DNA of 64,000 bases from Ruegeria lacuscaerulensis (GTDB lineage Bacteria; Pseudomonadota; Alphaproteobacteria; Rhodobacterales; Rhodobacteraceae). The DNA lies in contig NZ_WPZL01000003.1 of NCBI RefSeq assembly GCF_013031245.1, positions 1 to 64,000 of the forward strand. Direction: 5' to 3'. Positions 7,725 to 21,246 of this stretch are shown one piece after another; the stretch's first letter is position 1; every line of letters starts with the position of its first letter. The notes under the pieces are model-generated. The model had not been told where the DNA came from and did no database searches. It worked only from the letters and a program-made list of their open reading frames with translations. Position numbers and translations under genes: made by a program.

Positions 7725-10334
7725 ATGACCACGCAGGATACAGGTGAAGAACTCTGGGCCGTTCGCTGGGCCGAAAAGGTCACGGGATTTCTTGAAAAAC
7801 CCTGGGTCAGGATAGCGATACCGATTCTGGTCACACTCATTGCGCTGGTTGTGCTGCATGAGCTGTCCTCGCATGTAAAGTGGTCCGACGTTCAGACCGA
7901 TGTCGCCAATACGTCCTGGAAACTGCTGTTTTACGCCCTGTGCTTCACGGCTTTGAGCTTTCTGTCCTTGTCACTCTATGACGTTCTTGCAGTGCAAAGC
8001 GTGGCTGACGGAGAGGTTCCGTTGCCTGTTGCTGGCATGGCCGGGGCCTGCGGTTACGCTGTGTCGAATTGCCTTGGGTTCTCTTATATTACGGGGACTG
8101 CGATCCGATACCGGATCTATGCGTCACTTGGGTTGGATCTGGGCCGGGTCGCCGGTGTCATCGCTACGTCGTGGATTGCATTCTGGTCGGGGTTTGTGCT
8201 GCTGCTGGGCATTTTGCTGACCCTGCATCCGGATGGGGTGTCCAACCTTCTGCCAATCAGTGACACAACGGAAACCATCATTGGCCTCTGTCTGCTTGCC
8301 GCGGTGATAACCCTTTTTCTGTGGCTTGCGAAAGGTGGCCGAAGGCTGGCTTATGGCGGGCTTGGATTCAATCTGCCCGGCGGAAAACTGGCGGGGTTGC
8401 TGACGCTGGCCGCAGTCGGCGACCTGTTCGGGGCGTCCATGACGCTTTATGTGCTGATGCCGGATGACCTTGGGGTCGGTTATCCATTCTTCTTTACGAT
8501 TTACATTGGCGCCATTGCCGTCGGCATTCTCAGCCACGCGCCGGGCGGGATTGGCGCGTTCGAGGCCGCGCTGATCGCGGGGCTGGGCGCTTCGGGCCGA
8601 TCGGATGTGATCGCGGCGCTGTTGCTTTACAGGCTGGTTTACACCTTTTTGCCGTTCTCCATCGCCAGCTTGTCCATTGCCATTGCTTCGGCCCTGACAC
8701 ACCGGCACCACATCAGCGGTGCGGCCACATGGGTTTACCGCGTCATTCGCCCGATTGTTCCGATGGTCGCGGCGGGTGTCGCGGCAGTTGCCGGGGTTGT
8801 TCTGCTGGTGTCAGGAGCCTTGCCGTCAAGCAGCCAGAACCTCGGCGTCCTGCGCAATTTCCTGCCCCTGTCTTTCGTCGAAGCCTCACACCTGGCCGGC
8901 AGCGCTGTAGGAGTATTGCTGATCCTGATATCACGCGGGTTGTTCCGTAAACTTTACCGCGCCTGGGTCGTGGCCATGCTGTTGATGGTAGCCGGATTTG
9001 TAGCTTCGCTGACAAAAGGTCTGGATACGCATGAGGCAATCACCATGCTTGGTACCATCGCCTTGCTGGCCACCTTTCGGAGCGCGTTTTATCGCGTCAG
9101 CGGCGCATCGATTTTCCGCCTGAACATCCCGTGGCTGGTGAGTGTCATTGCGTTGCTCGCCGTTATCTTCTGGATTGGCCTTTTTGCCTATTCCCATGTC
9201 GAGTATCAGAACTCCTTGTGGTGGGAGTTCGCATGGAATGGCAACGCCTCACGATTTTTGCGCTCAAGCCTGGTGGTGGCGGTTATTCTTGGTGTGGTTG
9301 CCGTGAACTCATTGTTCGGGCGCGAAATTCCGCCGCCGGTGCGGACAGAGATCCCCGAGGTTGTTGAACGTCTGGCGCTGGAAAGCGAGGACACTGAAGC
9401 TCAGATATCGCTGACCGGTGACAAGCAATTCCTGATCTCACCGGACGAAACTGCGTTTCTGGCCTATGCCGACACTGGCAACGCTCTGATCACCAAGGGT
9501 GAGCCGGTGGGAGACGAAACTGCCGGTAAACAGTTGATCTGGCAATTGCGCGAAATGGCGGATCGGGAGGGCAAACTTTGCGCGTTTTACAGCGTTTCCA
9601 CCAAATACCTGCCGACCTTTCTGGATCTGGGTCTGTCCATCCTGAAAATCGGTGAGGTGGCGCGCGTACCGCTGAACGATTTTTCGCTGGACGGAAAATC
9701 CCGCAAGCGGTTTAGGCAGGCAAAGAACCGGGCCGAGCGGGAAGGCTATGTGTTCGAGATTATACCCAAAGATCAACTGGCCTCTGTTTTGCCGGAACTG
9801 CGTAAGATCTCTGATGACTGGCTTGAGCAAAAAGCAGGCGAGGAAAAGGGCTTTGCCCTTGGCGGGTTCGACGATGATTACCTGTCATATTTCGACCATG
9901 CCGTGCTGAGGAATGGCGACACGTGTGAGATCGTTGCCTTTGCCAATCTGTTTCAGGGCGGTCATAAATCCGAGCTGTCGCTGGACCTGATGCGCTATGA
10001 ACCCGACAGTCCAAGCTTCGTCATGGATGCGTTGTTTGCCGAGATGATGTCATGGGGGGCAGAGCAGGGGTTTCATTGGTTCTCGCTTGGCGCTGCACCG
10101 TTTTCGGGGATCGAGAACCGGCAACTGGCCTCGATCTGGAACCGTATCGGCGGGTTCGTCTATGAACATGGCGAACAGTTCTATCACTTTGAAGGGCTGC
10201 GGTCTTTCAAGCAGAAGTTCGATCCGGAATGGAGCCCGAACTACCTGGCCAGTCCTGGTGGGCTGGCGGCTCCGCGTATTCTGTACGAGGTGAACATCCT
10301 GATTTCTGGTGGGCTGCGTGGGCTGACGAAGTAA
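7725..10334 (+). CDS. mprF: Phosphatidylglycerol lysyltransferase/flippase MprF
   Basis: 869-aa bifunctional membrane protein. The N-terminal half (about 35-540) has roughly 14 hydrophobic segments of the UPF0104/flippase type (NCLGFSYITGTAIRYRIYA, LSHAPGGIGAFEAALI). The C-terminal cytosolic DUF2156 domain (about 565-865) carries KQFLISPDETAFLAY, SRKRFRQAKNRAEREGY and FHWFSLGAAPFSGI. It transfers lysine (or alanine) from charged tRNA to phosphatidylglycerol and flips the product, lowering envelope negative charge and cationic-peptide sensitivity. Full length, and apparently monocistronic. It converges with the outer-membrane factor gene only 3 bp away, with no terminator between them. Confidence 0.92.
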   Translation: MTTQDTGEELWAVRWAEKVTGFLEKPWVRIAIPILVTLIALVVLHELSSHVKWSDVQTDVANTSWKLLFYALCFTALSFLSLSLYDVLAVQSVADGEVPLPVAGMAGACGYAVSNCLGFSYITGTAIRYRIYASLGLDLGRVAGVIATSWIAFWSGFVLLLGILLTLHPDGVSNLLPISDTTETIIGLCLLAAVITLFLWLAKGGRRLAYGGLGFNLPGGKLAGLLTLAAVGDLFGASMTLYVLMPDDLGVGYPFFFTIYIGAIAVGILSHAPGGIGAFEAALIAGLGASGRSDVIAALLLYRLVYTFLPFSIASLSIAIASALTHRHHISGAATWVYRVIRPIVPMVAAGVAAVAGVVLLVSGALPSSSQNLGVLRNFLPLSFVEASHLAGSAVGVLLILISRGLFRKLYRAWVVAMLLMVAGFVASLTKGLDTHEAITMLGTIALLATFRSAFYRVSGASIFRLNIPWLVSVIALLAVIFWIGLFAYSHVEYQNSLWWEFAWNGNASRFLRSSLVVAVILGVVAVNSLFGREIPPPVRTEIPEVVERLALESEDTEAQISLTGDKQFLISPDETAFLAYADTGNALITKGEPVGDETAGKQLIWQLREMADREGKLCAFYSVSTKYLPTFLDLGLSILKIGEVARVPLNDFSLDGKSRKRFRQAKNRAEREGYVFEIIPKDQLASVLPELRKISDDWLEQKAGEEKGFALGGFDDDYLSYFDHAVLRNGDTCEIVAFANLFQGGHKSELSLDLMRYEPDSPSFVMDALFAEMMSWGAEQGFHWFSLGAAPFSGIENRQLASIWNRIGGFVYEHGEQFYHFEGLRSFKQKFDPEWSPNYLASPGGLAAPRILYEVNILISGGLRGLTK

Positions 10335-10337
10335 GAT

Positions 10338-11900
10338 TCAGTTCAGGCTGGCGCGTGTTGGGGTTTTCTCAAGAAGATCGCCCCAATCGGTGCGGTATGC
10401 CATCTCGGCCAACACAGTTTCGGGTAGGAATTCCTGGTTTTGCCGGATTTGCCAGCCGCCGCCCAAGCCCTTGTAGACCGCGACCAGATTGCTTGAAACC
10501 TGTTGCCGCGCCTCGATCAAATTGGCCTGAGATCTCAGTAGCGCCGTTTGCGTGTTCAGGATACGGGAATAACTGGCGATCCCATCGCGGTACTGACTGA
10601 CGGCAATGTCAGCAGCTTTGCGCGACGCGGCGACGCTGTTTTCATAGAAACCGACCTGTTTGCGTGACTGCGCATAGGCGACCATGGCGCTTTCAACCTC
10701 GGAATAGGCGGTCAAAACGGTATTCTGGTAATTGGCAATCAACGACTGATAAGCCGCATCCTGCGCGCGCACGTTGTTCTTGATCCGGCCGTAATTCAGC
10801 ACGTTCCAGACGACACCGGCATTTGCCAACCCGGTAGAACTGGACGACGAGAACAAGTCCCGGCCTCCCGACGCCTGAAGTCCGACCGCGCCGGACAGGA
10901 TGAACTGCGGATACAGATCCGCCAGCGCGATACCGACCTGAGCGGACTGCGTGGCCGCTGCCAGTTCAGCTGCACGCACGTCCGGGCGGCGACGCAGCAG
11001 CTCGGCCGGAACGCCGACAGCCACGTTGGAGCGCGCGGTTGGGATGCGCCCCGAATTGCCCAGAAGGCTGGTCATGCGCGATGGCGTCTGGCCAAGCAAA
11101 ACGGCCAGCGCATTCTTGGCCTGTTGAATGTCGCTTTCAATCTCGGGCACCAGCGCTTTGGTATTGTTGAGCAGGGCGGTGGATTCCTGCACGTCAAGTT
11201 CGGTTGTCACGCCGTTATTGAAGCGCAATTCGGTCAGGTCTGCGGATTCCTGTTGCAGCCGAATATTTTCACGCGCAACTGCCAGCGACTCCTGCAACGC
11301 TCGGATGTTTACATAGAGCGCTGCCACGTCGCCGGTCAGCGTGACCAGCGCGTCGTCATAATTGGCAACTTGCAGTGCCAGGTTGGACCGGGCGGCCTGA
11401 ACGCCGCGGCGCTGCTGGCCCCAGACGTCCAGCTCCCATTGTGCGTCAAAGCCGACCTGTGAGGTTGAGAACTCCGTATCCAGCGGGATGATGCGACGAA
11501 TATCCGAAACCGGACCCAAATTGTCGCTGACCTGACGTCGTTCGATGGAACCGCCGATGGCCTGCGATTGCGGGTAAAGCTCTCCGAAAGCGATACCCAG
11601 TTGTGCGCGGGCCTGCAGAACGCGCGCACCAGCCACCTGCAGGTCCAGATTCTGGGCATAGGCTTCGGCGATCAGCTTGTTCAGGGTCGGGTCGTTGAAC
11701 GTCTCCCACCACTTCACGACCGGGGCACTGCGCGAGGTTAAGCCGCTTTGTCCGGCGCTGGGGCTGTTCACCTCGATCCATTGTTTCACGACCGGAGAGT
11801 TCGGGCGCACGAAATCCGGACCAACCGGCGCGCAGCCCACCAGCAGGGCTACGCAGAGGGCGGTGCCTATCAGTCTGCGTTGTAGTTTGGCCCGGGTCAT
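10338..11900 (-). CDS. Outer-membrane efflux factor, NodT/TolC lipoprotein family
   Basis: 520-aa channel subunit. The lipoprotein signal ends in LLVGC (lipobox; Cys about residue 23), followed by APVGPDFVRP, the standard NodT start. Two OEP repeats follow with long coiled-coil helices, and GVPAELLRRRPDVRAAE is the signature between them. It should form the outer-membrane exit duct for the HlyD-type adaptor encoded 11 bp upstream. It is the last gene of a five-gene reverse operon that contains no inner-membrane pump. Confidence 0.92.
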   Translation of the reverse strand: MTRAKLQRRLIGTALCVALLVGCAPVGPDFVRPNSPVVKQWIEVNSPSAGQSGLTSRSAPVVKWWETFNDPTLNKLIAEAYAQNLDLQVAGARVLQARAQLGIAFGELYPQSQAIGGSIERRQVSDNLGPVSDIRRIIPLDTEFSTSQVGFDAQWELDVWGQQRRGVQAARSNLALQVANYDDALVTLTGDVAALYVNIRALQESLAVARENIRLQQESADLTELRFNNGVTTELDVQESTALLNNTKALVPEIESDIQQAKNALAVLLGQTPSRMTSLLGNSGRIPTARSNVAVGVPAELLRRRPDVRAAELAAATQSAQVGIALADLYPQFILSGAVGLQASGGRDLFSSSSSTGLANAGVVWNVLNYGRIKNNVRAQDAAYQSLIANYQNTVLTAYSEVESAMVAYAQSRKQVGFYENSVAASRKAADIAVSQYRDGIASYSRILNTQTALLRSQANLIEARQQVSSNLVAVYKGLGGGWQIRQNQEFLPETVLAEMAYRTDWGDLLEKTPTRASLN

Positions 11901-11911
11901 GTCACGTGTCC

Positions 11912-13057
11912 TCAGATATCCAGTGGTCGGATGAAGTTGGCGAAAGAGTACAGTCGTATGTTGATACGCCGTAGGAACTCAAAGCTTTTTCCTTGCCCGG
12001 TATAGATCGCCACAGCCGCGTGGCCACCTGCGGGGAAGGTGTGCTTATCAGGGATGTCGACCGAGATCTGCACCGCGATGCGGCCCGGCAGTTTCGGCAG
12101 CTCAAAGCCAGGCAGGCGGCCTGAAGGCAGGTATTGGCCCTGTCTGGTCGCCCACCAGATCGCCTCGACCTTACCGGTCAGAATCTCGCCGGGGTAAAGG
12201 TCCAGGGCGACCTCAACCTCCTGACCGGGCTCAACGAATTTCAGGTTCTGCTGACGGTAGGTGGCCAGAATGTACGGGTTATCTTTGGTCACAAAACTGG
12301 CGATCGCGCCCAACCTGATATCACCGACAACCAGGCCGGGACGGGCCTGTTGTGAGACGATCATGCCGTCTTCGGGCGCATAGATCGTGGTGTTGTTAAG
12401 GAAATACTGGGCCTTTTCCAACTGCGCCTGCGCCTGAAGGATGCCCGTGTTCACCCCGTCGATCTGAGAATCCAGCGCCAGCTGCGCTTTTTCCAGATTG
12501 GCCTCGGCCTCCTTCACCTGCGCCTGATCTTCGGTGACCTGTTCATTCCAGCGATCCAGCTCGTCCTGACGCGCACCACCGGCAGGCACCAGATTTTCAT
12601 AGCGCGCTTGCTGTGTCAGGGCATAAGCCAGCTGCGCGTTGGCCCGTTCGATTGCCTCGGCCGCGGCAATCACGTCTTGCTCGAGTATTTTGGCGTTCTG
12701 CTCGGCGGCAACCAGTTGTGCCGTGGCCTCTTCGACCTCAAGCGCGAACACCGTGTCGTCAAAGCGATAGAGGGGATCGCCCTTTTTGACGTCGGTATTG
12801 GGCTCGACCAGCACCTCCGTCAGGATCGTCGGTTCGGTCAGCCGCGGTACGATCTGGATGGTCGAACGGACAACATGGCTGTCGATTGAATAGGGTTGAA
12901 AGAACCGCAGCGCGACCAGAAAGACCAGCAGCAGATGCGCACCCACCCAAAAGGTAACGATCCCCCAGGTGATACTGAATTTCAGCCACTTCGCTTTGAA
13001 GAAAATGAACCAGACGAAAATGATGTAGAACAGCGTAATGCCGAGGGCGACGAACAT
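11912..13057 (-). CDS. HlyD/EmrA-type periplasmic adaptor (YiaV-like)
   Basis: 381-aa membrane-fusion protein. Two hydrophobic segments at the N-terminus (about 3-20 and 30-52) anchor it. The biotinyl-lipoyl-like half (EVLVEPNTDVKKGDPLYRFDD), a long coiled coil (about 105-215) and the beta-barrel (APEDGMIVSQQARPGLVV) follow. It lies 21 bp downstream of a DUF3302 gene, the same pairing as E. coli yiaW-yiaV, and just upstream of a NodT-type channel. Its inner-membrane partner is unknown. Confidence 0.9.
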   Translation of the reverse strand: MFVALGITLFYIIFVWFIFFKAKWLKFSITWGIVTFWVGAHLLLVFLVALRFFQPYSIDSHVVRSTIQIVPRLTEPTILTEVLVEPNTDVKKGDPLYRFDDTVFALEVEEATAQLVAAEQNAKILEQDVIAAAEAIERANAQLAYALTQQARYENLVPAGGARQDELDRWNEQVTEDQAQVKEAEANLEKAQLALDSQIDGVNTGILQAQAQLEKAQYFLNNTTIYAPEDGMIVSQQARPGLVVGDIRLGAIASFVTKDNPYILATYRQQNLKFVEPGQEVEVALDLYPGEILTGKVEAIWWATRQGQYLPSGRLPGFELPKLPGRIAVQISVDIPDKHTFPAGGHAAVAIYTGQGKSFEFLRRINIRLYSFANFIRPLDI

Positions 13058-13078
13058 ATTATGTAGTTTCCTTTGGCC

Positions 13079-13441
13079 TTAGCTTTTCTGCGTCTCGTCG
13101 GGATCCATAGGGTCGCGGTATTCCTCGTTCAAAGTGCCGCCCAACCGTTTGATTTCCTTGCGTACTGCGTCCCGTTCTTCATCGGGCATGCGGCGGATAT
13201 CAACCACTGTTCCATCATGGAACGCCCAAATGAAGGCATGGACCCATGGAACAATGGCCAAAAAACCCATCCATCCCATAATCTTTATTGCTTCGGCATG
13301 AGGGTGATTGCGTTTGATAGCGATGCGCCCCGGCAATCCCATGACGAACAGGAACAATCCCATTACCGCGGCCAGCAACAAGATCAGTGCGACGAATGTC
13401 AGATAGTCATAGTAGCCGAGTGGCTGCCCCAATAACCCCAT
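13079..13441 (-). CDS. DUF3302 inner-membrane protein (YiaW-like)
   Basis: 120-aa protein with two membrane helices (about 11-36 and 48-66) followed by a charged, probably cytoplasmic tail of about 50 residues. Key segments are GYYDYLTFVALILLLA, LPGRIAIKRNHPHAEAIKIM and GWMGFLAIVPWVHAFIWAF. I chose ATG 13441 rather than a start further upstream at 13501 because AAGGAGG lies 7 bp before it and the conserved family region begins there. Its function is unknown. Constant linkage to a HlyD adaptor suggests an accessory or small pump-like subunit of that export system. Confidence 0.85.
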   Translation of the reverse strand: MGLLGQPLGYYDYLTFVALILLLAAVMGLFLFVMGLPGRIAIKRNHPHAEAIKIMGWMGFLAIVPWVHAFIWAFHDGTVVDIRRMPDEERDAVRKEIKRLGGTLNEEYRDPMDPDETQKS

Positions 13442-13475
13442 GCTCGTGCCTCCTTTTGGGAAGGTTGCCCCATCC

Positions 13476-14045
13476 TCAGCCGTTGTCACCCAGTTCGTCA
13501 ATCAATTTGTAGCTGGTGGGCGGGTCGGCGCAAATGCCAGGGCCGCATTCCAGCAAAGTTGAAACAGCGTTTATAGCCGCCAGGCCCAACATGATGAAGA
13601 AGGCGGATTTGGCCAGAATACTGCCGCCAAAGCGGGGTTTGGCCTCGGTTTCGCCGGCGTATTGCCGGTCAAATAGCAGCATGAACGCCGTGCCAAGCAA
13701 GATCAGAAAAAAGCAGATCGCGGCCCAGGTGTAGTAGTGCAGGCCCAAAACAGGTGAGCCATAGTGGCCCGTGCCCGGGACGATATGTAGAAGAATTTGC
13801 CGGACGGCAACGCTGCCGCCGAAAAGCGCAGCGATCAGCATTATCGCATAGTGCTGGGGGCGGGGGCCATAAAGCAGGTTCAGGCCCAGACCAACACCCA
13901 CGGCAACAAAGCCAACCCTTTGCAGCAGGCACAAAGGGCAGGGTAGTTCAAAGAGTTTCAGTTGATAGATTAGGGCCAGCAACAGAACAAGGCTGACGGC
14001 CAGCATTCCAAACGCGTTCAGAGTTCGTGACAATTCTGGTGTCAT
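13476..14045 (-). CDS. dsbB: DsbB-like disulfide bond formation protein, atypical cysteine layout
   Basis: 189-aa quinone-linked thiol oxidase of the DsbB family, with five apparent membrane helices (about 12-30, 42-60, 66-88, 105-125, 146-164). The first redox pair, CPLC (36-39), is in its usual place after helix 1. The normal second pair in the loop between helices 3 and 4 is absent. Instead a CGPGIC pair (167, 172) sits in a C-terminal tail after the fifth helix, predicted to be periplasmic. No dsbA lies nearby. It sits inside the DUF5993-DsbB-DUF3302-HlyD-OMF operon. Confidence 0.88.
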   Translation of the reverse strand: MTPELSRTLNAFGMLAVSLVLLLALIYQLKLFELPCPLCLLQRVGFVAVGVGLGLNLLYGPRPQHYAIMLIAALFGGSVAVRQILLHIVPGTGHYGSPVLGLHYYTWAAICFFLILLGTAFMLLFDRQYAGETEAKPRFGGSILAKSAFFIMLGLAAINAVSTLLECGPGICADPPTSYKLIDELGDNG

Positions 14046-14054
14046 CCCGGCCCC

Positions 14055-14210
14055 CTACAACTGGATCGAAAGTTGGCTGGTTGCGTGGAACTTCAGCCAG
14101 TACACACTCAACGCCAGAGTGAAAAAGAACAGCACGTTGGCCGCGGTAGTTTTTCTGTAGTAGTTCAGCCCCATAGTGGCTGTAAGCAACGCAAATAAAA
14201 GCGCTATCAT
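14055..14210 (-). CDS. DUF5993-like 51-aa membrane protein
   Basis: A short gene starting at ATG 14210, behind GGGAGGGGAGG and ending 9 bp before dsbB. It encodes about 51 residues with two hydrophobic helices (about 2-13 and 25-38) around a Tyr-Tyr-Arg-Lys turn, and a C-terminal FHATSQLSIQL. This small two-helix pattern with an HATxxLxI tail is the DUF5993 family as I remember it, repeatedly found beside DsbB. Its function is unknown; a DsbB partner or stabiliser is the natural guess. It has no cysteines. Confidence 0.75.
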   Translation of the reverse strand: MIALLFALLTATMGLNYYRKTTAANVLFFFTLALSVYWLKFHATSQLSIQL

Positions 14211-16926: not shown

Positions 16927-19900
16927 TCAGGCCGCTTCTTCCGAAGGTCCGGGATCGTTCTTTGTGCCCTTGATCCATTCCCTCAGCCCCTGCATCACGG
17001 CGTAGAGAACGGGCACAAGTATGACACCGATCAGCGTCGCCGCCAGCATTCCGCCAAACACAGCAACACCGATGGCTTTCTGGCTGGCAGCGCCAGCGCC
17101 GCTGGCCGCCAGAAGCGGGACAACACCCAGCAGGAACGACAGGGCCGTCATCATCACCGCGCGGAAACGCTGGAACGCGGCCTCGGCGGCGGCGTCCTTG
17201 ATCGACAAACCGTTGGCGCGCTGCTCCATTGCAAATTCAACGATGAGAATGCCGTTCTTCGACGCCAGACCCACAAGCATGATCATCCCGATCTGCGTAT
17301 ACAGGTTGATGTCACTGCCTACGATCGCCACCGCCGCAACCGCGCCGAACAAGGCGACGATCACCGATAGCAGGATCGATACCGGCATCGTCCAACTCTC
17401 GTATTGCCCGACAAGGAACAGGTAACCAAACAAGATTGCCAACCCCAGAATGACAATAACCAAACTGCCCGATGCTAGCTGTTGCTGCGCGGTGCCGGTC
17501 CATTCGAAGGCATATCCCGGGGGCAGGGCGGTTGCAGACTCCTCGGTCATGACATTGATCGCGTCGCCGCTGGACAATCCCGGCGCTGGTACCGCTGTCA
17601 CGGTTGCTGAGCGGAACAGGTTATGACGTTTGAGCAGAACCGGACCCAGCACGTTTTCAACGTCGATCAGCGTGCCCAGAGGTACCATCTCGCCTTCGGT
17701 GGACCGTACATACAGGTTCGAGATGTCCTCGACATTGTCACGATAACTCCCGTCGGCCTGGATCATCACGCGATAGACTCGTCCAAACAGGTTGAAGTCG
17801 TTGACGTAGTATGAACCCAGCTGCGCCTGCATGGTCTGGAAGATCTCTGCCACGGACACTTGCAGCGTCTTCGCTTTTTCCCTGTCCAGATCGACAAACA
17901 GCTGGGGGACATTTGCGCGGAAAGTCGTATAGGCCTGCGCGATTTCAGGGCGCTGGTTCGCAGAATACACAAACGATCCCACGGCTGAGGCCAGATCCTG
18001 CGGTGAGCCGCCACCGGTCTGCTGTACCTCCATCTCAACCCCGGCAGACATGCCCAGACCCTGAATTGGTGGTGGGTTAAAGGCCAGGATCGATGCGGCG
18101 GATTCACCGTTGGCGATAGCCAGAACCTTGCCCAGAATGGCGTCTGCGCTCAGGTCTTCATCCTTCCGTTCGTCCCAGTTTTCCAGGTTCACAAAGATCG
18201 CCGCGCCGTTGGTGGTCGTGCCGTTGAGTATCGAAAACCCGTTGACCAGAACGGTGCTGGCAACCCCTGGAATCTCGCGGATCTGGTCGTCTACACGCCT
18301 GGACACTGCCTCGGTCCTCTCCAGAGTTGCAGCGTCCGGCAGCTGGATATCCACGAACAAATAGCCGTTGTCCTCAAGCGGAAGAAAACCGCTGGACGTG
18401 TTCGACATGATTGTTCCTGTCCCCATAGCGAGGGCAACAATGACACCTACCGCAACCACGGGAAGGATCAGCATCTTGCGCACGATAGCAACATAGCCGC
18501 CGCGCACCGTTCCGATGAATTTCTCGAACACGGCCAGCAGACCCTTAGGCGGGCCGGAGCGTTCCCGCAGCACCAGACCGCACAAGGCAGGCGAAAGGGT
18601 CAGCGCGTTAATCGAAGAGATCACCACAGCGGTCGAGATTGTAACCGCAAACTGCGAATAGAGCCTTCCCGAGATACCGGGCATGAACGTGACCGGCACG
18701 AACACAGCCAGCAGAACCAGAGTAGTGGCAATAACCGGGCCTGTGATCTGCCCCATCGCCTTTCGGGTCGCCTCGGCGGGGGGCAACCCCTCATCCGCGA
18801 TGATCCGCTCGACGTTTTCGACTACGACGATGGCGTCGTCCACCACGATCCCGATGGCCAGCACCAAGGCGAACAACGAAATCGTGTTTAGCGACATCCC
18901 GAACAGCAGAAGGAAGGCGAACGTGCCAATCAGGGACACCGGGATCGCAACGGCGGGAATGATCGTTGCGCGCCAACTGCCCAAAAAGATGAATACAACG
19001 GTGATCACCAGCGTGAAGGTCATGATCAGGGTCGTGACCACGTCATTCAGAGATTGTTCGACAAAGTCGGTGGTATTGAACGGCACCTGATATTCAACAT
19101 CGGTCGGGAAGGACCGCGATAGGCGCTCCAGCTCGGCCTGAACACGTTCCGATACGGCCAGAGCGTTGGCTCCGGGCGCCTGATAGATGCCGATGACGGT
19201 CGCCGGGACGGCCTGGAAATAACCTGATGCCGAATAGAATTGAGCACCCAGTTCCACACGCGCGATATCTTTAACCCGAACAATCGAGCCCGCCTCACCA
19301 GTCCGGATAACAATGTTGCCGAACTCTGCAGTCGATGTCAGGCGACCCTTGGTCTTGATGGTGTACTGAAAGGTCTGCCCTTCGGGTACAGGGGGCGACC
19401 CGATGGAACCGGCTGAAACCTCGATATTCTGTTCCCGAATGGCGTTGATCACATCGCCCGGAGTGATGGACAGAGCCGCCATCTGATCCGGGTCCATCCA
19501 GATCCGCATGGCGTATTCCAGATTGGTCAGAACGTCCGCTTTACCAACACCCTGAACCCGCGCCAGCGCGTCTTTCAGGTTGATCGATGCATAGTTGGAC
19601 AGGAACACACTGTCATAAGTTCCATTGGGCGAGGTCAGTGTCACCAGCAGCAGCATGTTTGTGGACGCTTTCTGCGTGACCACACCCGAGGACGTTACCT
19701 CGGACGGCAGGGACGACATGGCCTGCGCCACGCGGTTCTGCACGTTCACCGAAGCGATATCGGGATCCGTGCCCACTTCGAACGTGACGTTCAGCGAATA
19801 CGAGCCGTTATCCGACGAGGTGGACGTCATGTAGATCATGTCATCCACGCCGTTCACCTGTGCCTCAATGGGTGCGGCGACAGTATTTTCAACGGTTTCG

Positions 19901-20064
19901 GCGTTTGCCCCCGTGTATGTCGTGGTAACACTGACCACCGGTGGCGTAATATCCGGGAACTGGGCGACCGGCAGAACCAGATAGCCGATGCCACCCATGA
20001 TTGTCAGGACAAGCGAAATAACAAGCGCCAGCTTGGGCCGGCTGATGAACAGGGCTGAGAACAT
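16927..20064 (-). CDS. RND efflux permease, HAE1 (AcrB/MexB) family
   Basis: 1045-aa proton-driven drug exporter in the inner membrane. Features: helix 1 at 13-31, a large periplasmic loop, [14 protein letters not shown] (the Asp-Asp proton-relay pair in helix 4), [12 protein letters not shown] (the relay Lys in helix 10), and a second duplicated half starting about residue 540. The length is typical of the family. It follows the adaptor gene by 3 bp. No outer-membrane partner is in this operon; the NodT-type channel at 10.3-11.9 kb or a TolC elsewhere could serve. Confidence 0.94.
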
Positions 20065-20067
20065 CCG

Positions 20068-21246
20068 TTATTCCCCCGGCTGCTCAGACGCCACGACCGC
20101 GTCGACCGCGACACCGGGCCGGACCCTTTGCAGGCCCTCGACGATCACGCTTTCCCCTTCGCGCAGGCCTTCTTTGACGATGATGGCCGACTCAACTGTG
20201 TCTCCGGTAGTGATATAGCGCTGTTCGACCATCTGCTTGTCGTTGACGACCAGCACAAATTCACCCCGTTGATCGCGTTGCAGCGCGGCCTGAGGGATCA
20301 GGACTTCCAATGTGGGTTCCAGTGCTTCGATATGCACGCTTAGGAAAGCGCCGTCGATGATCAGCCGGTCAGCGTTGTCGAATTCCGCGCGCAGCGTGAT
20401 GGCGCCGGTCAAGGGATCAATCCGGTTGTCGACAAAGACGATCTTGCCGGTTTCATCCAGTTCCGAGCCATTGGGCAATGTCACGCGGACGACCGGGCTT
20501 TGGTCGCTTTCGGCCAGCGTGGACGCGTTCTCACCCACTGATTCCAGAACCGAGGTAAACTGCTTCTCGTTCAACGAGAAATTGACGTAGATCGGCGCCT
20601 CGCTGACGATGTTGACCAAAGGCGGGTTGTTCGGTCCGACAACATCGCCAACACTGATCGCAACCCTCCCGATACGGCCGGAAAACGGCGCGTGGATCTG
20701 AGTATAACTCAGGTCCAGTTCCGCCTGCTGGATCGCGGCATTGGCGGCTTTGACTTCGGCCTCTGCCACCAGTTCGTTGGCGCGCGCAATGTCGCGTTCG
20801 GATTCCGGCGTGGCATCGCGTTTGTAAAGCTCTTCCTTTCGAGCCAGATCAACCTTGGCCAGTTCCAGATTGGCCTCGGCCCGGTCCAGGTCAGCGTTGC
20901 GCGCTTCCAGAGTGGCCTGGTACAGGTCGGGCTCGATCGTGAAAAGAAGATCGCCTTCGTTCACCAGCGCGCCGTCTTCGACATTCTGACTGTCAAGAAA
21001 GCCGCTGACACGTGCCACGATATCGGCCTTGTCCAGCGCTTCGGCCCGTCCGATGAACGCGGCTTCTTCAGTAATTTCCTGCGTATAAGCCGCCGCGATG
21101 GATACTTTAGGAGGCGGCGCCTCGCTTTGATCCTGGGCAGAAGCGGCATGCGCCAGTCCCAAGCAGACCAAAGCGGCCGAAAGCCATAGAAATCTGGCGA
21201 CAGGGCCGTTTTGACGGAAATCGGAAAACGTCGATACAAGGGACAT
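20068..21246 (-). CDS. RND efflux periplasmic adaptor (AcrA/MexE type)
   Basis: 392-aa membrane-fusion protein. A signal peptide of about 37 residues ends near HAASAQ. The lipoyl domain (DIVARVSGFLDSQNVEDGALVNEGDLLFTIEP), the helical hairpin (about 105-165) and the lipoyl return APFSGRIGRVAISVGDVVGP are clear. The beta-barrel contains FVDNRIDPLTGAITLRAEF, close to the MexE/BepF subtype. First gene of a two-gene operon with the RND permease. No TetR-type regulator is adjacent, so control is not visible locally. Confidence 0.93.
   Translation of the reverse strand: MSLVSTFSDFRQNGPVARFLWLSAALVCLGLAHAASAQDQSEAPPPKVSIAAAYTQEITEEAAFIGRAEALDKADIVARVSGFLDSQNVEDGALVNEGDLLFTIEPDLYQATLEARNADLDRAEANLELAKVDLARKEELYKRDATPESERDIARANELVAEAEVKAANAAIQQAELDLSYTQIHAPFSGRIGRVAISVGDVVGPNNPPLVNIVSEAPIYVNFSLNEKQFTSVLESVGENASTLAESDQSPVVRVTLPNGSELDETGKIVFVDNRIDPLTGAITLRAEFDNADRLIIDGAFLSVHIEALEPTLEVLIPQAALQRDQRGEFVLVVNDKQMVEQRYITTGDTVESAIIVKEGLREGESVIVEGLQRVRPGVAVDAVVASEQPGE

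Follow-up and report, generated by a model that had tools for sequence, protein, structure and literature searches.

A window of 64,000 nucleotides from Ruegeria lacuscaerulensis (contig NZ_WPZL01000003.1, positions 1 to 64,000) carries a run of five tightly spaced genes on its reverse strand. They encode, in order of reading, a DUF5993 protein, a DsbB-like protein, a DUF3302 protein, a HlyD/EmrA-like periplasmic adaptor and a NodT-type outer-membrane efflux duct. Judged from sequence comparisons, the locus probably consists of two units placed head to tail rather than one five-gene machine, and DUF3302-adaptor(-NodT) is the real conserved unit of the run. The explanation that we favor, with modest confidence, is that DUF3302, adaptor and NodT make up an export-like unit in which DUF3302 acts as the inner-membrane partner, the DsbB pair being separate from it.

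The DUF3302 protein (13079..13441; 120 amino acids, two membrane helices) scores 52 bits against PF11742 (cut-off 32). Behind it follow the adaptor (11912..13057; 381 amino acids), which exceeds the cut-off of both PF16576 and PF13437, and NodT (10338..11900; 520 amino acids; TIGR01845, 344.6 bits, cut-off 210). The run opens with DUF5993, a membrane protein of 51 amino acids (14055..14210; PF19455, 50.4 bits, cut-off 27), and the DsbB-like protein (13476..14045; 189 amino acids; PF02600, 42.3 bits, cut-off 22.1). From DUF5993 to NodT the gaps measure 9, 34, 21 and 11 bp, with the 21 bp between DUF3302 and the adaptor. A first-pass annotation had described five genes 9-34 bp apart that include no pump. 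Positions and gaps hold, each gene passes a family cut-off, and neither the family profiles nor the list of open reading frames (ORFs) contains a transporter among the five.

Conservation of the DUF3302-adaptor pair and its duct

DUF3302 is almost invariably linked to one kind of adaptor: 119 of the 120 DUF3302 genes sampled precede a YiaV/YibH-type adaptor, and 114 of these 119 adaptors are distinct. The adaptor follows directly in 56 of 57 cases of a Pfam-based sample (about 40 stretches fetched for some 78 listed matches, plus an earlier set) and in 63 of 63 cases of an adaptor-based sample. The lone exception (L102) is a weak DUF3302 match of 25 bits. Conversely, all 63 full-length adaptors retrieved by an adaptor-sequence search have DUF3302. 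DUF3302 was found in 55 of 397 sampled genomes, and the adaptor type occurs across Pseudomonadota, including E. coli. A DUF3302-adaptor fusion in L028 was not used, as frame breaks follow it and the gene may be damaged. The window genome holds a second, divergent DUF3302-adaptor pair (L032; G000:C13:37271-37441), which is convergent with a DHA2-type permease gene.

These adaptors also form a group of their own. In a tree of 81 rows, built after six misread, fused or fragmentary rows were dropped, a 99/95 branch separates the 71 DUF3302-linked adaptors, YiaV and YibH included, from the rest; the window adaptor thus groups with YiaV/YibH apart from other adaptor types, of which ten were compared. 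Hydropathy reveals two N-terminal hydrophobic segments in nearly all DUF3302-linked adaptors, except for a few mis-started ORFs, and one such segment in E. coli EmrA, MdtN, YbhG, YhiI, MacA and AcrA. A weak second peak appears in AaeA and in the EmrA-type adaptor of the window genome itself.

Within this group, the subfamily that includes the window adaptor is recognized by three marks: a DUF3302 tail (VDIRRMP), the adaptor motif TIQIxPRLxxPT and an adaptor loop with LPSGxLPxF. All three are present in 24 of 71 loci and all are absent from the other 47. An outer-membrane duct gene lies behind the pair in 21 of the 24 mark-positive loci and in 4 of the 47 mark-negative ones. When neighbors were clustered, only NodT recurred widely as a same-strand partner, apart from frame-shadow ORFs and from ABC ATPases, which are scattered over either strand. 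A Methyltransf_7 gene (S-adenosylmethionine-dependent carboxyl methyltransferase) is located downstream of NodT in L186 and L187.

Scanning genome contigs with the adaptor as query yielded 64 loci, one of which (L211) is a fragment of 49 residues. The window adaptor is up to 97% identical to those of named Ruegeria loci. In 44 of the 64 loci, which constitute the Ruegeria group, mprF lies behind NodT as it does in the window, where this convergent downstream neighbor (7725-10334; 849 bits) encodes a bifunctional MprF, a lysylphosphatidylglycerol flippase/synthetase. The complete five-gene set is present in 33 of these 44 loci; the remaining 11 keep DUF3302, adaptor and NodT and lack DUF5993-DsbB. 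As the 44 were selected by the presence of the adaptor, loss of the trio is not visible among them; a search of 54 genomes of the genus located the adaptor itself in 51. Two same-genus loci from an independent search (L026 and L132) also have all five genes, yet they are L184 and L173 again. The five-gene order occurs in none of the other 20 loci, whereas 16 of those carry the DUF3302-adaptor-NodT trio, including L191; in L201, L206 and L207 the adaptor is not followed by a duct gene. Among these loci, the five-gene order was thus found in the Ruegeria group only.

Search for a pump gene

The lack of a pump gene is general among the DUF3302-linked adaptors examined and not a gap peculiar to this locus. 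Taking as a run all same-strand neighbors separated by no more than 150 bp, we compared 72 runs with the pump sequences of E. coli and found no gene matching EmrB, AaeB, MdtO, AcrB, MacB, YbhF or RbbA. Only one of these runs is from the Ruegeria group (L026), and two are duplicates (L190 of L029, L191 of L027). Multi-helix or recurrent unlabelled neighbors were checked against Pfam in part, and no exporter family recurs among those that were checked. Behind NodT, an ion-channel domain is encoded in two Polynucleobacter-type loci, and other multi-helix neighbors are scattered. ORFs of 512-516 amino acids upstream in L189, L190 and L029 have no Pfam match and were set aside. The other upstream ORFs turned out to be unrelated genes (MFS_1 in L187, a glyoxalase in L191, BipA in L199). 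In L094, L095 and L096 a SulP-STAS permease gene comes directly after the pair; L094 and L095 also encode an AI-2E family protein further along.

One other association is suggestive and was not used for the verdict. Genes for PF00884-type sulfatases occur in 7 of 69 fetched DUF3302 loci (L084, L090, L091, L093, L207, L030 and L023) and in 1 of 29 control loci, where the match is weak. Four of the seven also have a HAD hydrolase, and L084 is flanked by sulfatases on both sides. Given a density of 291 sulfatases in 214.3 Mb (45 genomes), 1.2 would be expected in the 52 Pfam-search loci against 7 observed (P 0.0003, or about 0.035 if three related loci count once), although the observed and density counts rely on different models and thresholds. 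Family profiles of the window indicate no sulfatase near its trio.

Predicted structures and a model of the unit

The AlphaFold2 model of the adaptor has a mean pLDDT (predicted local distance difference test) of 81. It starts with N-terminal helices 2-21 and 29-53, for which pLDDT is about 64-76, and continues with a hairpin (about 102-221) built of helices 102-156, 164-196 and 204-221. It also contains lipoyl and beta-barrel strands, and residues 357-376 make up a C-terminal helix. Its nearest solved fold is EmrA of EmrAB-TolC (8zar_D; Foldseek E 6.3e-22, template modelling score 0.66). Adaptor fold, long hairpin and C-terminal helix are shared with that system, and the profile match is 2.8e-17. 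EmrA, however, has one N-terminal helix and an adjacent EmrB permease, whereas the window has two helices, DUF3302 and no permease. In the DUF3302 model (pLDDT 77; predicted template modelling score 0.54), residues 10-34 are helical, 36-43 form a short helix, 49-74 the second helix, which is broken, and 86-100 a helix in the tail. A positively charged loop (LPGRIAIKRNHPHAEAI) separates the two membrane helices and the conserved VDIRRMP tail lies at the C-terminus. According to the positive-inside rule, positively charged loops of membrane proteins stay on the cytoplasmic side. The charged residues would thus place the loop in the cytoplasm and both ends of the protein in the periplasm. DUF3302 also has a weak Pfam match to Imm_superinfect (19.8 bits, under the cut-off of 27.9), which we attribute to a likeness between helices.

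The EmrB permease of EmrAB-TolC docks on the beta-barrel loops of EmrA (PMC13139468). The profile match sets the window adaptor and EmrA roughly in register, which puts the conserved LPSGxLP loop in that region. Since this loop roughly matches the region where EmrB docks, we place DUF3302 at the LPSG loop. We infer a physical complex, with its docking mode and substrate route, along the following lines. The adaptor, hexameric by analogy with EmrA, would contribute twelve membrane helices as its own anchor and would reach across the periplasm to the NodT trimer. DUF3302 would sit in the inner membrane beneath the adaptor ring, in the role of a pump's membrane part, where it may hold, gate or feed the base of the tube. 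Its conserved tail may dock on the membrane-facing loops of the adaptor. Because no classical pump is dedicated to the assembly, cargo would more likely be picked up in the periplasm or at the outer surface of the inner membrane than be driven out of the cytoplasm.

Compared with a tripartite efflux pump of the EmrAB-TolC or AcrAB-TolC kind, the outer-membrane factor is present here (NodT), while the energized inner-membrane transporter encoded with the adaptor is absent, as are the canonical kinds throughout the 72 runs. The pump of MdtNOP and AaeXAB is of the FUSC type. MdtN is the best NCBIfam match of the window adaptor (111.8 bits, below the cut-off of 376), and AaeX is likewise a small protein encoded before an adaptor. 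In both systems, though, the pump (MdtO, AaeB) is part of the operon, whereas the window genome has no FUSC_2 match, the other FUSC model (PF04632) not having been searched.

The closest parallels are the E. coli pairs YiaW-YiaV and YibI-YibH. Both have DUF3302 directly before an adaptor of the same group, with at least two N-terminal hydrophobic segments, and no adjacent pump gene. The pumpless state that had been ascribed to yiaW-yiaV is thereby verified and applies to yibI-yibH as well. Unlike the window, the E. coli pairs have no outer-membrane efflux gene beside them. They also lack the DUF3302 tail, TIQI and LPSG of the window subfamily, and their adaptors are about 25% identical to that of the window.

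The literature found on DUF3302, YiaV/YibH and YiaW/YibI, consulted as excerpts, names no mechanism, pump or substrate in those excerpts. Here, yiaV is an uncharacterized member of the MFP family, YiaV being listed as TCDB 8.A.1.1.4 (PMC10971958), and its expression is raised 1.5-fold on colonization of biofilms (PMC3646849). In a Vibrio genome-association study, a yiaV gene is named and credited, by citation, with a role in drug tolerance (PMC10485832). Transformation efficiency is reported to rise when yiaW is deleted (cited in PMC12844161), while a yiaW insertion was not the explanation of a macrophage phenotype (PMC5495878). A yibI deletion mutant loses out in competition in urine (index 0.33) and shows reduced adhesion (PMC5404293). 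A term search of a 2026 adaptor review gave no mention of YiaV (PMC13328181).

Distribution and features of the DUF5993-DsbB pair

DUF5993 and DsbB keep together independently of the trio. A DsbB-like gene lies directly downstream of DUF5993 in all 20 loci above the family cut-off (19 found by profile and L139 by tblastn; three weaker matches are outside this count). Outside the window's genus, the pairs occur without DUF3302 nearby. Genomes G112, G376, G320 and G378 carry both the pair and the DUF3302-adaptor module, unlinked and far apart.

The 11 pair-less loci of the Ruegeria group are scattered over a tree of trio DNA, which requires 10 changes, or 11 if two outgroup rows are included; in the latter case at least 9 of the 11 are forced by well-supported branches. 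L174 retains the first 15 codons of DUF5993 and DsbB residues 152-189, while L185 retains DsbB residues 162-188. As these remnants differ, more than one deletion event took place, though recombination between strains could reduce the true number. DUF5993 was found nowhere in 10 of the 11 genomes with a pair-less locus; the genome of L179 carries a DUF5993-DsbB pair elsewhere. The pair thus looks like a separable, often-deleted neighbor and not like a part of the export-like machine. It would act as an independent thiol-oxidation module, whose transcript may read on into the trio; the trio would not need it.

The window DsbB has its CPLC motif (residues 36-39) behind membrane helix 1. A second pair of Cys (ECGPGIC; Cys 167 and 172) lies in a C-terminal tail that follows a fifth hydrophobic segment. 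Apart from these the protein holds a single Cys at position 111. CPxC is kept in 53 of 54 relatives and the C-terminal EC[GA]xxxC in all 54. In E. coli DsbB, the loop that joins helices 3 and 4, the second one on the periplasmic side, carries the second Cys pair. The window protein has no Cys pair between these helices; it shares the CPxC motif and the protein family with E. coli DsbB and Campylobacter DsbI, and departs from E. coli DsbB in that its second pair sits in the C-terminal tail instead. Its match to the DsbI model (32.4 bits) is far under the cut-off of 800. The combination of DUF5993 with a five-segment DsbB variant that ends in ECGxGxC recurs in the window (13476-14210), L026, L035 and L123-L139, and may represent an unstudied two-part thiol oxidase. 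A five-segment DsbB-like gene without DUF5993 is present in L200 (9743-10345), convergent to the NodT gene of the trio.

A conserved element upstream of the trio

A promoter-like element, TTGACG-N18-GAGGAT (13472..13501, reverse strand), overlaps the 3' end of dsbB, covering its last codons and extending just past the stop. The pattern TTGA[ACT]...G[AG]GGAT with the same 30-nucleotide span is matched in all 11 pair-less Ruegeria-group loci and in 30 of the 34 loci that have dsbB, and in none of 19 loci outside the Ruegeria group. Among ten pair-less loci (45 pairs; L156 was excluded as a near-copy of L155), the 68 nucleotides adjoining DUF3302 have a mean identity of 72% between lineages, compared with 52% for the preceding 68 nucleotides and 52% for shuffles. 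Scans for a sigma-70 consensus promoter do not flag the element. Because no coding constraint acts there once dsbB is gone, we infer a promoter function: the element is probably a candidate promoter or operator that belongs to the trio itself.

Weighing the explanations

Several observations weigh against an export-like unit with DUF3302 as inner-membrane partner. A complex does not follow from the adjacency of DUF3302 and the adaptor, as read from gene order. DUF3302 consists of just two helices and lacks any recognizable energy-coupling feature, and its fold search returned no match below E 0.001, hence no solved relative. The three subfamily marks travel within one clade and are therefore not independent events; moreover, 19 of the 24 mark-positive loci were fetched with patterns that include TIQI, and the 52 loci chosen without this pattern comprise 5 with all marks and 47 with none. 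Transporters do lie near some pairs. In four loci a secondary transporter comes directly behind the pair (SulP three times, a CPA2-type antiporter once). Beyond the 150-bp rule, L187 has an MFS_1 gene 257 bp upstream, L101 an RND pair 380 bp upstream and L189 an EmrA-EmrB pair some 2 kb downstream. These leave room for a partner transporter. The window genome, finally, holds DHA2-like permeases without a labelled adaptor and RND pumps without a duct gene, so that an outside pump or a shared NodT is conceivable. One DHA2 permease exceeds its family cut-off and has its own EmrA-type adaptor. Four DHA2-like permeases score 149-215 bits, below the cut-off, and five more are weaker still. Three of the four have no labelled adaptor beside them; the fourth is the one convergent to the second DUF3302-adaptor pair (L032). 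PF02321 detects three outer-membrane efflux proteins, on contigs C17 (TolC-type), C85 (in a type I secretion cluster) and C30 (NodT). NodT is the only NodT-type duct found, the other two matching the TolC-type model TIGR01844 best. The six RND permeases lie on C30, C67, C12, C63, C1 and C18; five have no duct gene on their own contig and the sixth (C30) has only NodT.

An energized pump encoded elsewhere, such as an orphan DHA2/MFS permease or a secondary transporter, could accordingly serve the adaptor, with DUF3302 as an accessory like AaeX. The nearest solved fold, EmrA, has an MFS pump as its partner, and both the DHA2-like permeases of intermediate score and the SulP or antiporter genes behind the pair fit such an arrangement. 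Yet no exporter type is linked to the adaptor across the 72 runs, against the near-constant presence of DUF3302, and the transporters near the pair vary by lineage. A dedicated small partner and duct without a dedicated pump would also be odd for a pump subunit, and we regard this explanation as unlikely. Alternatively, NodT might mainly be a duct for the RND pumps of the genome. This is compatible with the explanation that we favor and we rate it as possible, if on the unlikely side. The foremost client would be the AcrAB-like pair about 2.7 kb upstream of the run, an AcrB-type permease (16927..20064; PF00873, 1043 bits) and its AcrA-type adaptor (20068..21246; phmmer match to E. coli AcrA, 172 bits), both on the reverse strand beyond glpD and the DeoR-type regulator gene that is the run's same-strand upstream neighbor. 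L179, L185 and L188 lack the intervening glpD-deoR. Their RND gene lies directly upstream of the run on the same strand, which, together with three ducts for six RND permeases, speaks for sharing. Against it, the duct gene accompanies the DUF3302-adaptor pair in most loci of the subfamily, and an RND gene is labelled in none of the 20 stretches outside the Ruegeria group. Moreover, the spacer between RND gene and trio of L185 contains a hairpin-plus-T-run site (in L179 a hairpin is scored on the opposite strand only), and sharing leaves adaptor and DUF3302 unexplained.

A stricter version of the pump-free assembly would see DUF3302, adaptor and NodT as a self-sufficient conduit, with a closed inner-membrane base made of the two-helix DUF3302 and the adaptor with its two-helix anchor, and with periplasmic or membrane-surface cargo that exits via NodT without any classical transporter. 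E. coli YiaWV and YibIH would then be half-systems that borrow TolC. We consider this version quite doubtful. By far the least probable is a single machine in which DsbB and the trio couple thiol or quinone oxidation to export, as the first-pass annotation had suggested. The common strand, the short gaps, the order kept in three quarters of the Ruegeria group and the convergent DsbB-like gene adjoining the trio in L200 are consistent with it. It is nonetheless largely refuted: 11 of 44 loci have the trio and not the pair, through about ten changes on the tree, DUF5993 was found nowhere in 10 of those 11 genomes, and pair and trio live apart outside Ruegeria. These natural deletions and the separate occurrence of the pair led us to reject the five-gene machine with thiol coupling. 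The earlier suggestion that DUF3302 itself forms or recruits the inner-membrane part has, by contrast, gained strength from its linkage to the adaptor and from the pump-free runs, though it is unproven.

Implications

A tight five-gene run can mislead: natural deletions inside one genus part the DsbB pair from the trio. What might have passed for an adaptor that lost its pump becomes a testable proposal, namely that DUF3302 is the dedicated partner of this adaptor. If that is true, tripartite assemblies need not contain a classical pump.

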